64,000 nt of DNA, taken from positions 2,604,001 to 2,668,000 of the forward strand of contig NZ_CAJHAF010000001.1 of assembly GCF_904846315.1 (NCBI RefSeq), in the 5' to 3' direction. The notes below the pieces were generated by a model. It had not been told where the DNA came from, searched no databases, and worked only from the letters and a program-made list of their open reading frames with translations. Position 1 is the first letter of the stretch. Every line of letters begins with the position of its first letter. The DNA is from Psychrobacter jeotgali. GTDB taxonomy: Bacteria > Pseudomonadota > Gammaproteobacteria > Pseudomonadales > Moraxellaceae. The translations under genes and the position numbers were made by a program. This document shows, piece after piece, positions 6,489 through 10,121 of the stretch.

Positions 6489-6857
6489 TTAATCTTCTTT
6501 GATTTTAATCACATTATAGCCCGGGTAGCCAAGCTCGATCTTGTAATCTTTGTTGCCACGAATGGCTTTGACTTTGATAGTACTACTGCCTTTCTTATAT
6601 TTGACATCTCGAACGCGGTATCCCATACCGGCCACTTTATTAGCCGCTTGCTGCTCAATCGCTGGCAGGTAAATATCCTTTTCGAGTGTCTTGATGGTCT
6701 TTTTATGCTTTTTATAGACAGATGAATCTTTATAAATGTCTTCATAGACATCGCCATAGGCGTTATAGCCCGGGGTAGCGCAGCCGGTAGTCACGGCTAG
6801 AAGGGCGGCGACTATGCTGGTAGCAGTGAGGGTTTTTAATGCAGATAAGGTGCTCAT
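6489..6857 (-). CDS. Small PepSY-like lipoprotein (paralogue 1)
   Basis: Predicted lipoprotein of 122 residues: hydrophobic signal to residue ~25 with lipobox VTTGC. A lysine-rich linker precedes a C-terminal PepSY-like region, IEQQAANKVAGMGYRVRDVKY...YKIELGYPGYNVIKIKED. The same architecture and several identical residues (GMGY, YxIELxYP, VIK) occur in the neighbouring gene at 7130-7546, so the two are paralogues. PepSY domains are often linked to protease inhibition or periplasmic binding, but no function is known here. It runs convergent to the YqfO-like gene. Confidence 0.75.
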   Translation of the reverse strand: MSTLSALKTLTATSIVAALLAVTTGCATPGYNAYGDVYEDIYKDSSVYKKHKKTIKTLEKDIYLPAIEQQAANKVAGMGYRVRDVKYKKGSSTIKVKAIRGNKDYKIELGYPGYNVIKIKED

Positions 6858-6969: not shown

Positions 6970-7129
6970 GCGGTACCAAAGGTGGGGTACCAAAACTAAA
7001 ATTATGCTATAAGAAATCACTTCATCCTATCCTCAACTATTTAGCTTTACAGAAGTAGGTTAATGCTATTAGCTATGTGGGCTAATGCTAATGTCACTTA
7101 ACACATCACATCAATAGGTCCGATATTCT

Positions 7130-7546
7130 TTAGTCACGCTCAAGTTTAATAACCCTTAAATCAGGATAGCTCAGTTCAATCTCATACTCTTGTCCGCCTC
7201 GTTTGGCTTCAATCTCAAAAATACCGCGATTATTTTTTTCATCCAGCTCGATATCAGTAACTTGATAGCCCATCCCATTAACTTTTCTAATAGCACGCTG
7301 TCTGATCGCCGGATAACGTGCTTCTTGTTTTATTCTATCTTCAATATCGTCATCTTTGTGGCGCTGGTATTGACCTTTGTTTTTATAGCTTTTGTTTTTA
7401 TAAATGTTACCTGTATCATGATAAATAGGTCTATCGTCGTATCTTGGGCTGACAGTAGTCGTACAGCCAATAGTAGCCGCTAGCAAGGGAATAGTTACAC
7501 CAGCGGTCAACACTGTTTTTATCTTTGAATGAGATAAGAATGCCAT
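7130..7546 (-). CDS. Small PepSY-like lipoprotein (paralogue 2)
   Basis: Predicted lipoprotein of 138 residues with a signal peptide ending ATIGC. A polar, Tyr/Lys/Asp-rich linker (about residues 35-75) leads to a C-terminal PepSY-like region: YPAIRQRAIRKVNGMGYQVTD, then EIEAKRGGQEYEIELSYPDLRVIKLERD. It is a tandem paralogue of the 6489-6857 product, with a longer linker and a more acidic C-terminal half. Function is unknown. The upstream region holds the CsrB-like RNA locus, transcribed away from it. Confidence 0.75.
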   Translation of the reverse strand: MAFLSHSKIKTVLTAGVTIPLLAATIGCTTTVSPRYDDRPIYHDTGNIYKNKSYKNKGQYQRHKDDDIEDRIKQEARYPAIRQRAIRKVNGMGYQVTDIELDEKNNRGIFEIEAKRGGQEYEIELSYPDLRVIKLERD

Positions 7547-7781
7547 GATATTTTATTCCTACAATGGGTGAGTGGCAAAAATGCTTATAATAGTATTGAA
7601 TAGTCTCTTGAAATAATTTATTACATTTGCATCATAGGGGCAATAGCTTGGAGATAGATGTCGTTTACGTTTATAAAATGTAAAAACTAATAAGCTTAGG
7701 TAAATATCAAATATTATAAATAATAATAGGTTCTATAAATAATAGTGGTCAGACCTTCAAAAATAAGCGTTCTAGACTGGA

Positions 7782-7799
7782 TGTAAGCATATGCTTACA
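7782..7799 (+). promoter_or_regulatory. GacA upstream activating sequence (Gac box)
   Basis: TGTAAGCATATGCTTACA is an 18-bp perfect palindrome and an exact match to the Pseudomonas Gac-box consensus TGTAAG-N6-CTTACA, bound by GacA ahead of rsmX, rsmY and rsmZ. Its centre is about 67 bp upstream of the inferred start of the GGA-rich RNA, in the spacing range known for such genes. Confidence 0.88.
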
Positions 7800-7820
7800 A
7801 GCAATGACGCTCACGCTACT

Positions 7821-7858
7821 TAACAGAAGCCTAACATTTTGGCATTATAGTCACACGG
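7821..7858 (+). promoter_or_regulatory. Putative promoter of the CsrB/RsmZ-like RNA
   Basis: A -10-like TATAGT lies at 7846-7851. The -35 region (around 7821-7828, TAACAGAA) is poor, as expected for an activator-dependent promoter. It places transcription start near 7857-7859, just at the first GGA hairpin. The start site is inferred, not measured. Confidence 0.6.
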
Positions 7859-8131
7859 TACAGGGGATTGTAGCTCAAGGATTGAGTTGACCGCATTAGG
7901 GATAATGATTCATAAGCTGGCATCAGGATGATAAAAGCTTATGGAGTAAGGATACAGCCTGTACGGACCGATAGTCGTAAGACTATTATGATGTAAAGTA
8001 AGTCACGGGCAGGATGCCTGACTATCACCCCATACTAACTATAGTTCAAGGATGGATTATAATAGTCGTGATAGCTAACATGGATAGTTAACAATAAAAC
8101 CGCATAATCATTAATGGCTATGCGGTTTTAT
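7858..8131 (+). ncRNA. CsrB/RsmX/Y/Z-type CsrA-sequestering small RNA
   Basis: About 275 nt with eleven GGA motifs (7865, 7879, 7900, 7926, 7943, 7950, 7965, 8012, 8050, 8054, 8082). Most lie in loops of short hairpins: TACA-GGGGAT-TGTA (7859-7872), CTCA-AGGAT-TGAG (7874-7886), CATTA-GGGA-TAATG (7894-7907), ATC-AGGAT-GAT within an eight-pair outer stem (7911-7943), GTA-AGGA-TAC (7946-7955), GGC-AGGAT-GCC (8008-8018) and TAAC-ATGGATA-GTTA (8076-8090). It ends in a 12-bp terminator stem. Loop-presented GGA repeats are the hallmark of RNAs that titrate the regulator CsrA/RsmA. With the Gac box upstream, this is a GacS/GacA output RNA. No protein-coding potential was seen. Exact ends are inferred. 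Confidence 0.85.
8095..8130 (+). terminator. Terminator of the CsrB-like RNA
   Basis: A twelve-pair stem TAAAACCGCATA / TATGCGGTTTTA with a 12-base loop. The T-rich right arm continues into TTTTATCG. It closes the GGA-rich transcript. Confidence 0.85.
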
Positions 8132-8219
8132 CGTGTCTAGAGTTTGTCTATAATTCATTTGGCTATGTTAGCTAAAAGGGGTAGCTAAAATCTAGACCCT
8201 TAAATACCTACTTACGCTC

Positions 8220-8259
8220 AAATAGAAATAGCACTGATTGATCAGTGCTATTTCTATTT
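8220..8259 (-). terminator. Strong terminator downstream of csbD-like gene
   Basis: A perfect 19-bp inverted repeat (8220-8238 with 8241-8259) separated by two bases, A-rich on one side and T-rich on the other. It can work in both directions. It lies 54 bp past the stop of the minus-strand CsbD gene and also insulates it from the CsrB-like RNA. Confidence 0.85.
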
Positions 8260-8312
8260 GTAAAGCTATTTAGGAAAGAAAATTATAGCTATAAATTGTA
8301 TTCTAATCAGAA

Positions 8313-8516
8313 TTAGTAATTATGTTCACGGCGCCAGTCATCTACTTGACGCTCAGCTTCATCTTTACTATGGCCATAACGCTCTTGCACGCGGCCAACC
8401 AACTTGTCACGGCTGCCTTCAACGTGTAGTAAATCGTCATCCGTTAAATCTGCCCATTTTTGTTTTGCTGAGCCTTTGAGTTGATTCCAATCACCTTTAA
8501 AAGTATGTTTATTCAT
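8313..8516 (-). CDS. CsbD family stress-response protein
   Basis: A 67-residue, highly charged helical protein of the CsbD/YjbJ family, cytoplasmic proteins that accumulate under general stress. The family pattern is clear: GDWNQLKGSAKQKWADLTDDDL, then GSRDKLVGRVQERYG and a final EAERQVDDWRREH. AAGGAGAAGCTTT is a strong ribosome binding site. Molecular function is unknown in the family. It is flanked by its own terminator and a 280-bp upstream spacer. Confidence 0.92.
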   Translation of the reverse strand: MNKHTFKGDWNQLKGSAKQKWADLTDDDLLHVEGSRDKLVGRVQERYGHSKDEAERQVDDWRREHNY

Positions 8517-8798
8517 AAAGCTTCTCCTTGTTATGATTATTAATTTATTAATTACTGCTGTATTCAGCTAACAGGTTATCCAGCTGATAAATTTTAGTAT
8601 AGGTGCTCACAGTTTTACCGTCTATATAATCATTGTTTATAGTGTTGCTTAATAATAGCAGAATAAGCTTTTATGTTATGAGCACACCGGTTATGTAGAG
8701 AGCTATGTAAATTACATATCCAGTATGTAATAGCAGAATTAAATAATGGGTTTGTTTTATGAGATTACACTGATGCAGCTAGTAGATTTTGCAATTTG

Positions 8799-10121
8799 TT
8801 AAGTCTCAGAACCTACAAAATCAAAGTCGACTTTTGGTGTTTCGCCTTGCATCATCAAGCTAATAGCTTTAGCTGAACCGCAAGCAAAAGTCCAGCCAAG
8901 AGTGCCATGTCCAGTATTAAGCCAGAGATTATCGAAGGTCGCTTCGGTATTGTGACTGCCGTGATAGTTTCTACCTTTATGTGCCCGCCCAATTAGAGGC
9001 ACGCTTGAGGGGGTCATCGGATGCAAGCTTGCCCAAAACTGCGCTGAATTAGCAACAATGCCTTTGGGGAAAAGCTGCCGTATGCGTTCAGTGATTTCAT
9101 CGCAGCGAGCTTGATTCAAATCTAGACTGTAACCATTAAATTCAATGGCGCTTGCCACTCGTAGAGTATCACCAAGGCGCGATATAACCAGTTTATACTC
9201 GTCATCAATTAGGCTAATAAAGGGCGCTAGGTGCGGCGCACGTGGATTGACTTTATAAGTGGCAGTATAGCTTTTTGCCGCAAAGATAGGCAGCTCAACC
9301 TCCAAAGGCTTTAATAGTGGCATGCTATCATGACCTAGTGCTAGTACATGGCTATCAGCGCTAAAGGTTTGGGCGTTTTCATCAATAGGTTGAATGGTAA
9401 TACTATGGATATGCGGCTGTTCGGAGTGTGCATCAACATTGAGGGCTAAAACCTCAGTATCGTACATAAAGCGTACGCCTGCCTGCTGACAACGTTCAGC
9501 CAAACGTTTGGTAAATAAGTAAGGGTTGCCTGACTCATCAAGACTGGTATAGGTGGCACCAATAAGCTTATGAGCAATAGGATAAAGGGCTGGCTCTAGA
9601 CTAGCTGTGTTATTAATATCAATAAACTGTCGATTGCAGCCCAGCTCTTGTATGCGTTTAGTAGCAGCGTTTGCAGCTTCAAAATCCACTTTATTAGTAT
9701 AAAAATGCATAACCCCACGAGTTTTATGCTCGTACTTTATGTTCATGTCAGCACGTAAGTATTTTAGCGCTTGTTGTGAATACAGCCCTAAACGTACCAT
9801 CTGTACCAGATTGGCATCAGACTTTTCAGCTCGGCATTCGCGCAAGAATTGCATGGCCCATTGACGCTGTGATTTATCAGCACGCAGGCGATAGAGTAGC
9901 GGTGCATCCTCGCTAAAAAATCCTTTGAGCGCCTCAAACGGGGTTTTGGGATCTGCCCAAGGTTTGGCATTGGCCACTGATAAGCTGCCACTGGCGAATA
10001 AAGTCTGTATCCCTGCCGCTGACTCGCGCTCAATGACAGTAACGTCAAAACCAGCTTGGCGCAAATACCATGCGGTAGTTATGCCCACCACACCGGCCCC
10101 AAGTACTGCAATATGTGCCAT
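8799..10121 (-). CDS. dadA: D-amino acid dehydrogenase, small subunit
   Basis: FAD-dependent inner-membrane-associated dehydrogenase that oxidises D-amino acids (D-alanine in catabolism) to 2-oxo acids, feeding electrons to the respiratory chain. The N-terminal Rossmann motif is HIAVLGAGVVGITTAWYL. The C terminus has the DAO-type blocks HPMTPSSVPLIGR and NLWLNTGHGTLGWTFACGSA. Length (440) fits DadA (~432). I prefer the ATG at 10121; an in-frame TTG three codons upstream is less likely. No alanine racemase (dadX) is adjacent. Confidence 0.9.
   Translation of the reverse strand: MAHIAVLGAGVVGITTAWYLRQAGFDVTVIERESAAGIQTLFASGSLSVANAKPWADPKTPFEALKGFFSEDAPLLYRLRADKSQRQWAMQFLRECRAEKSDANLVQMVRLGLYSQQALKYLRADMNIKYEHKTRGVMHFYTNKVDFEAANAATKRIQELGCNRQFIDINNTASLEPALYPIAHKLIGATYTSLDESGNPYLFTKRLAERCQQAGVRFMYDTEVLALNVDAHSEQPHIHSITIQPIDENAQTFSADSHVLALGHDSMPLLKPLEVELPIFAAKSYTATYKVNPRAPHLAPFISLIDDEYKLVISRLGDTLRVASAIEFNGYSLDLNQARCDEITERIRQLFPKGIVANSAQFWASLHPMTPSSVPLIGRAHKGRNYHGSHNTEATFDNLWLNTGHGTLGWTFACGSAKAISLMMQGETPKVDFDFVGSET

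Follow-up and report, generated by a model that had tools for sequence, protein, structure and literature searches.

A probable GacA-controlled, CsrA-sequestering RNA with a diverged second copy in Psychrobacter

Does the intergenic stretch that follows a palindromic Gac box in Psychrobacter jeotgali specify a regulatory RNA of the Csr/Rsm type, and is it an isolated locus or a member of a family? We examined it within a window of 64,000 nucleotides, the whole stretch of DNA that was analysed, to which the positions below refer. A sequence-only reading had proposed an RNA of the CsrB/RsmZ type at this place, and everything that the sequence itself can test (box, spacing, GGA loops, covariation, the lack of any ORF above 30 aa, partner genes) agrees with it. 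We consider it very probable that positions 7857-8131 of the plus strand correspond to a non-coding CsrB/RsmZ-like RNA, here called RNA A, which is switched on by GacA and draws CsrA off its targets. The sequence shows a Gac box with promoter elements, loops that keep their GGA, stems that covary and a conserved gene order, and partner genes are found in the genome. The features of the RNA itself are the following, all on the plus strand.

7857..8131, plus strand: RNA A, predicted CsrA-sequestering small RNA of about 275 nt, both ends predicted
7871..7889, plus strand: GGA hairpin 1 (GGA 7879); no variation in the loop or in five of six consensus pairs
7894..7907, plus strand: GGA hairpin 2 (GGA 7900); CG/UA covariation at the outer pair
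7909..7945, plus strand: GGA hairpin 3 (GGA 7926); long stem with compensatory change in 10 of 14 pairs
8006..8020, plus strand: GGA hairpin 4 (GGA 8012); from the fold and the 54-row alignment
8040..8061, plus strand: GGA hairpin 5 (GGA 8050); from the fold and the 54-row alignment
8076..8090, plus strand: GGA hairpin 6 (GGA 8082); found in the consensus fold but absent from the minimum-energy fold of the single sequence
8094..8131, plus strand: terminator-like hairpin with A-tract and U-tract; 99.4% of stem cells paired over 54 rows

The eleven GGA motifs attributed to about 275 nt were recovered, with 11 counted in 7860-8131, against a window mean of 2.0 per stretch of equal size and a maximum of 10 elsewhere; 11 of 2000 shuffles reach this number. 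The count of ANGGA in the same interval is 8 (at most 4 elsewhere, reached by 1 of 2000 shuffles), and that of A.GGAT is 6 (at most 3 elsewhere, reached by 0 of 2000). With either strand considered, the densities of all three motifs have their window-wide peak in the RNA A stretch. The single-sequence fold has an energy of −80.7 kcal/mol (z = −4.31), and 0 of 200 shuffles are equally stable. By reading of this fold, six GGA lie in hairpin loops (7879, 7900, 7926, 7950, 8012 and 8050), and the consensus fold brings GGA 8082 into a hairpin loop too. The statement that at least seven GGA are in hairpin loops is fair for the window sequence, as six plus 8082, whereas across the 54 rows of the alignment described below the number of GGA in conserved loops is six. 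As for the strong terminator of the same reading, the stem of the long A-tract/U-tract hairpin at 8094-8131 is kept, but the strict terminator scan found 0 terminators, this hairpin not being among its calls.

Upstream of RNA A, the elements that could drive its transcription are arranged as follows.

7782..7799, plus strand: Gac box (predicted GacA binding site), a perfect palindrome of TGTAAG, CATATG and CTTACA, TGTAAGCATATGCTTACA
7805..7809, plus strand: TGACG element, 5 nt past the Gac box and conserved with it in RNA A and in a second copy, RNA B
7820..7825, plus strand: −35 hexamer TTAACA, invariant in 21 aligned RNA A rows
7840..7851, plus strand: extended −10, with TG at 7840-7841 and CATTAT at 7843-7848, conserved in RNA A rows

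The exact 18-bp Gac box was confirmed, and it is the sole exact match within the window. It is identical and in a fixed register in 51 of 57 usable named Psychrobacter rows, and TATA follows 46 nt after it in 49 of these 57. A −10 element had been placed 46 bp after the box, where TATAGT (7846-7851) gives one possible register, but the better fit is the TG-extended CATTAT with TTAACA, at a spacing of 17 nt. A promoter scan of the region returned 6 sites of the sigma-70 type versus 3.8 in shuffles, so that the promoter match of RNA A gains weight solely from its conservation.

Exact Gac boxes are present in 89 of 91 genomes of the genus, versus 3 of 91 for a reversed-pattern control. In the source genome there are three: that of RNA A, one at C1:2803076, which shares the six-base spacer of the RNA A box, and one at C1:1300663. 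The third palindrome (C1:1300663-1300680, L001) lies between convergent ORFs with no GGA-rich stretch alongside, and we rejected it as a promoter of a small RNA; it is perhaps a terminator hairpin. Among the 30 box-bearing loci that we retrieved from other genomes, only three (L106, L119 and L120) have at least four ANGGA downstream, and 27 have fewer than four on either side. The Gac box alone thus proves little, given these loci and the third box, and for the same scarcity of ANGGA-rich loci we set aside plain counting of boxes across the family and used no counts from beyond Psychrobacter as evidence. That 27 of 30 boxes lack such a stretch and that the third box separates convergent genes would also suit a chance origin of the locus, with a palindrome and a handful of GGA coming together in AT-rich intergenic DNA. 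We regard chance as scarcely credible here, in view of the conservation and covariation of RNA A.

In a first draw of 38 genomes, a DNA search with RNA A matched 22 (the source genome included), all of the same genus and out of 25 genomes of that genus in the draw. A diagnostic pattern of 20 positions retrieved 62 stretches from named genomes. The record title gives Psychrobacter for 60; the remaining two (L058 and L088) are not homologous (no match, and 21 bp only) and were rejected. The alignment of RNA A has 54 rows, namely 53 distinct records from the 60 Psychrobacter stretches plus the window, after leaving out L058 and L088, three stretches that are cut off (L049, L062 and L069), one whose end did not fit the end pattern used (L066) and exact duplicates. 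Conservation of the GGA hairpins among Psychrobacter orthologues, which the sequence-only reading had proposed to check, is borne out: eight of the eleven GGA recur in no fewer than 48 of the 54 rows, with 7879, 7926, 8012, 8050 and 8082 in 54/54 and 7900 in 52/54. Six of the eight lie in conserved hairpin loops, 7865 and 7950 falling outside them, and the other GGA, at 7943, 7965 and 8054, are private to the window sequence or nearly so (15/54, 1/54 and 1/54).

The stems change in a compensatory manner. The computed consensus structure comprises 72 pairs, 29 of which show compensatory change, and replacing two of its weak pairs by a hand-drawn hairpin 2 gives a structure of 75 pairs. In the latter 97.7% of cells are paired, versus 27-44% when the partner is slid by one to three columns, and double changes occur in 31 of the 75 pairs versus 7-17 when slid, a comparison that favours the structure over its slid versions because one and the same alignment served both to derive it and to count its pairs. 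None of 500 shuffles reaches the 75-pair structure on any of five measures.

RNA A lies between two minus-strand genes that serve as markers of synteny.

7130..7546, minus strand: upstream neighbour with a PepSY_2 match, outside the RNA gene
8313..8516, minus strand: downstream neighbour, CsbD-like protein, convergent with RNA A

The csbD gene is found downstream in 53 of 60 Psychrobacter RNA A loci, the other seven having only 109-416 nt of sequence left, and in 51 of the 53 no more than 0.62 kb separates its midpoint from the first conserved hairpin. A PepSY-type gene or a relative of it is upstream in 49 of 60 loci; among the 11 loci lacking one, upstream sequence amounts to at most 0.53 kb in five and to 1.07-7.04 kb in the other six, which makes this side more variable than the csbD side. 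Genes further upstream also recur among relatives, with names such as purC being a reading of their translations only. Two other features of the neighbourhood were noted. A near-perfect inverted repeat of 40 nt (8220-8259), between RNA A and csbD, is perhaps the minus-strand csbD terminator, and the adjacent small minus-strand genes at 6489-6857 and 7130-7546, both of which match one and the same place in several relatives, suggest a duplicated pair.

The constancy of the convergent csbD gene (53 of 60 loci, with too little sequence in the other seven) would also suit a structured RNA with a different role, such as regulating the csbD mRNA by base pairing, in which the GGA loops would be incidental. 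We hold this to be very improbable, since the GGA loops belong to the least variable parts while the stems around them show compensatory changes, and since RNA B, which lies between other genes, keeps both the GGA motifs and the promoter plan. The reading of RNA A as a CsrA-sequestering RNA is thus preferred, and it extends to this second copy, which the single-locus picture of the sequence-only reading had missed, as it had the tandem copies described below.

C1:2803076..2803356: RNA B (L003/L135), diverged second copy, about 191 kb from RNA A and beyond the window

RNA B is built on the same plan, with a Gac box, TGACG and a TG-extended −10, followed by about 208 nt that hold seven GGA and a terminator-like hairpin, and it is flanked by genes for a tail-specific protease and an FKBP-type isomerase. 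A DNA search with RNA B matched 101 of 105 genomes of the genus at E 1e-3; matches are long (E 5.4e-27 or better) in 84 of the 105 and cover the promoter part only in the rest. We aligned 29 of the 30 loci that were fetched, which gave 27 distinct rows. Six GGA each persist in no fewer than 25 of these, and double changes are seen in 15 of 46 pairs versus 1-11 when the partners are slid.

Nine genomes of the genus (G005, G023, G137, G140, G167, G232, G259, G263 and, from the first draw, G021), in which the RNA A model scores low or finds no match, have two or three box-led stretches in tandem within about 2 kb (L211-L217, L219 and L220). Two of the boxes in these arrays carry one mismatch, four copies have only two or three ANGGA though six to nine GGA, and the start of the RNA is close to that of RNA A in most copies. 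The csbD gene is within seven of the nine tandem stretches, being absent from those of G259 and G021. In a further genome (L218, G270) three boxes are spread over about 7 kb, with ORFs in between.

To delimit the range of RNA A, its model was run over 249 genomes of the family, 91 of them in the genus. By count of the listed rows, 81 of the 91 score at least 174 bits, seven score 45-63 bits and three give no match; only matches of at least 174 bits were counted as RNA A, because the low scorers rest in part on the terminator hairpin and some are antisense. Of the three unmatched genomes, G143 reads N inside the RNA, and G261 and G263 have stretches with a box plus GGA. Outside the genus, the model gave weak matches in three genomes of genus g20 and one of g23, and under stricter filters it gave no match in any genome of g28 (taken to be Acinetobacter), in a comparison that did not include the published Acinetobacter loci. 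In 11 genomes of genera g16, g20, g22 and g23, hand-picked so as to include the four with weak matches, there are 20 exact boxes. Loci were fetched for 13 of these boxes, and 11 such loci have at least four ANGGA downstream, L201 lacking a clear −10. Other genera of the Moraxellaceae hold similar box-led, GGA-rich loci.

The element just past the box is conserved along with it in both RNAs. At 5 nt past the box, TGACG is found in 18 of 21 RNA A rows, 27 of 30 RNA B rows, 14 of 26 rows of the tandem group and 6 of 15 rows from other genera, and GACG in 21/21, 27/30, 23/26 and 6/15, respectively, the 26 tandem-group rows including one box read in the wrong direction. Within the source genome, box plus TGACG marks RNA A and RNA B only. 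The combination was found in 8 of 8 genomes of the genus versus a single one among 285 further genomes sampled from the order, a draw in which the TGACG-bearing genomes of other genera known from the row counts gave no match; the single match outside the genus runs into apparent coding sequence and has two ANGGA. The GACG/TGACG element may belong to the GacA contact or constitute a second site.

The protein partners are encoded in the source genome. A GacA-like protein scores about 245.6-245.8 bits with the GacA model and 158 with its next-best model, the second-best place in the genome reaching 115.9 with the GacA model, and its score of 245.6 is below the NCBI curated cut-off of 280. A BarA/GacS-like hybrid kinase of 1204 aa has HisKA, HATPase, receiver and Hpt domains and BarA as its best model (511.3 bits, below the NCBI curated cut-off of 890); the other of the two hybrid kinases scanned (901 aa) has no Hpt match and reaches 274.3 bits with the BarA model. 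There is one CsrA, at 119.1 bits, above its cut-off of 73. GacA-like proteins (E 1e-40 or better) and CsrA are each present in 91 of 91 genomes of the genus, and in 244 and 241, respectively, of 249 across the family. One genome (G087) gave zero candidates for both and was excluded from interpretation. Since both genes are nearly universal in the family, a test for joint loss of gacA, csrA and the RNA carries no information.

These data also bear on the possibility that RNA A binds CsrA but is not controlled, or not mainly, by GacA, with another LuxR-type regulator acting at the box or the GACG element being decisive. The sub-cut-off score of the GacA-like protein leaves some room for this, as does a GACG that is as constant as the box in RNA A (21 of 21 rows); against it, the box agrees fully with the Gac consensus, as taken from the sequence-only reading, and the GacA-like protein, the clear best match to the GacA model in the genome, occurs in 91 of 91 genomes of the genus. 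We judge control of either of these other kinds to be improbable.

For RNA A under GacA control, we infer, by analogy with CsrB/RsmZ, transcription, activation by GacA, and binding and titration of CsrA along the following route. The GacS/BarA-type hybrid kinase would lead to phosphorylated GacA, which would bind the box at 7782-7799, whose centre is some 66 bp ahead of the predicted start, and switch on the sigma-70 promoter at 7820-7848. The transcript would fold into at least six hairpins with GGA in their loops, and CsrA dimers that bind these loops would be drawn off their mRNA targets. As RNA B, with its six conserved GGA, shares the promoter plan of RNA A, the output of GacS/GacA would be a pair of RNAs. 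Paired outputs of this kind are those of RsmY/RsmZ and CsrB/CsrC. A wider proposal, possible but one that we would not bet on as a whole, is that the Moraxellaceae have a so far unrecorded RNA family, not covered by the Rfam models, whose members are driven by GacA and act as CsrA sponges, organised as an unlinked A/B pair in most Psychrobacter and as tandem arrays of two or three copies in more diverged members, with a two-part site (Gac box plus GACG) read by a second DNA-binding protein or through a lineage-specific GacA contact.

The prediction that such an RNA would escape standard searches proved right for Rfam. The CsrB model (RF00018) gave 16.9 bits (E 0.048) on 7000-9000, versus a gathering score of 71 and 380.4 bits for E. 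coli csrB with the same tool. The covariance-model search put forward as a check found no usable family: CsrC, RsmX, RsmY and RsmZ gave no match at the gathering score in the window, where any sub-threshold overlap of the same clan would be hidden behind CsrB, and at that level the whole window yields four tRNAs only and nothing Csr-like. Matches to trpB and other weak matches in 7000-9000, mostly on hairpins around 8088-8260, were set aside. An Rfam search of 20 loci (16 RNA A loci, RNA B and three from other genera) gave no Csr-type match at E ≤ 0.1, which excludes only stronger matches, because in 65.8 kb a match of 16.9 bits misses E 0.1.

A full-text search of freely readable papers found no Csr RNA of Psychrobacter, in line with the sequence-only reading, to which no published description in the genus was known; in the accessible part of PMC9927453 the genus appears in the reference list only. 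Predictions do exist for Acinetobacter, in the accessible parts of the sources: a table of two predicted Csr/Rsm RNA loci in strain ADP1 (PMC5568370), RsmX, RsmY and RsmZ given for A. baumannii (PMC7366521), and a figure legend that names a 'CsrB-like small RNA' (PMC12442408). As Rfam does not recognise RNA A and Csr RNAs of Acinetobacter have already been predicted, it is best seen as a known kind of RNA. RNA A would represent a lineage-specific sequence family within the Csr-type class, not previously described in Psychrobacter as far as our search goes.

The likely output of GacS/GacA can now be named for a genus in which Rfam annotation shows nothing. RNA A and RNA B are two concrete genes for the study of Csr regulation in Psychrobacter, and their alignment could give a model for an RNA family. 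The tandem copies and the A/B pair offer a case of sponge RNAs that multiply and diverge with their loops kept. Members of Psychrobacter are often found in cold or salty environments, as well as on animals and food.

How, then, does RNA A compare with known systems? The RNAs predicted in Acinetobacter come from the same bacterial family and are likewise predicted to regulate CsrA, in another genus. Pf1 of Pseudoalteromonas fuliginea is described in the accessible part of PMC9927453 as an experimentally tested Csr small RNA with a putative GacA box and 21 GGA motifs, whose 260 sequence matches all fall within its own genus. To judge from that part, Pf1 and RNA A are alike in being genus-bound and from a cold-living genus, but Pf1 belongs to another genus, has more GGA (21 versus 11) and has been tested.

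RNA A has several traits of the Csr/Rsm class: it appears non-coding with its own promoter (longest overlapping ORF of 30 aa and a conserved promoter match), carries several conserved GGA mainly in hairpin loops, and follows a Gac box in a genome with GacA, GacS and CsrA, the first two assigned by best model below the cut-offs. In Pseudomonas, transcription of RsmY, RsmZ and RsmX starts some 60-66 bp past a Gac box, and these RNAs have a single promoter, GGA in loops and a terminator; a genome has more than one such RNA, and they are shorter than the about 275 nt of RNA A. RNA A resembles them in box spacing, single promoter, loop GGA, a possible terminator and more than one RNA per genome, and differs in its length of about 275 nt, the GACG element past the box and the lack of an Rfam match to them: at E 10 none of these families appears for 7000-9000, the search reporting for the clan just its best overlapping match, CsrB. 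From CsrB as modelled in RF00018 it stands apart by its score, 16.9 bits being far under the cut-off, yet like E. coli CsrB/CsrC and RsmB it has numerous GGA hairpins and falls into a comparable range of length, and CsrB gives its best Csr-type signal.
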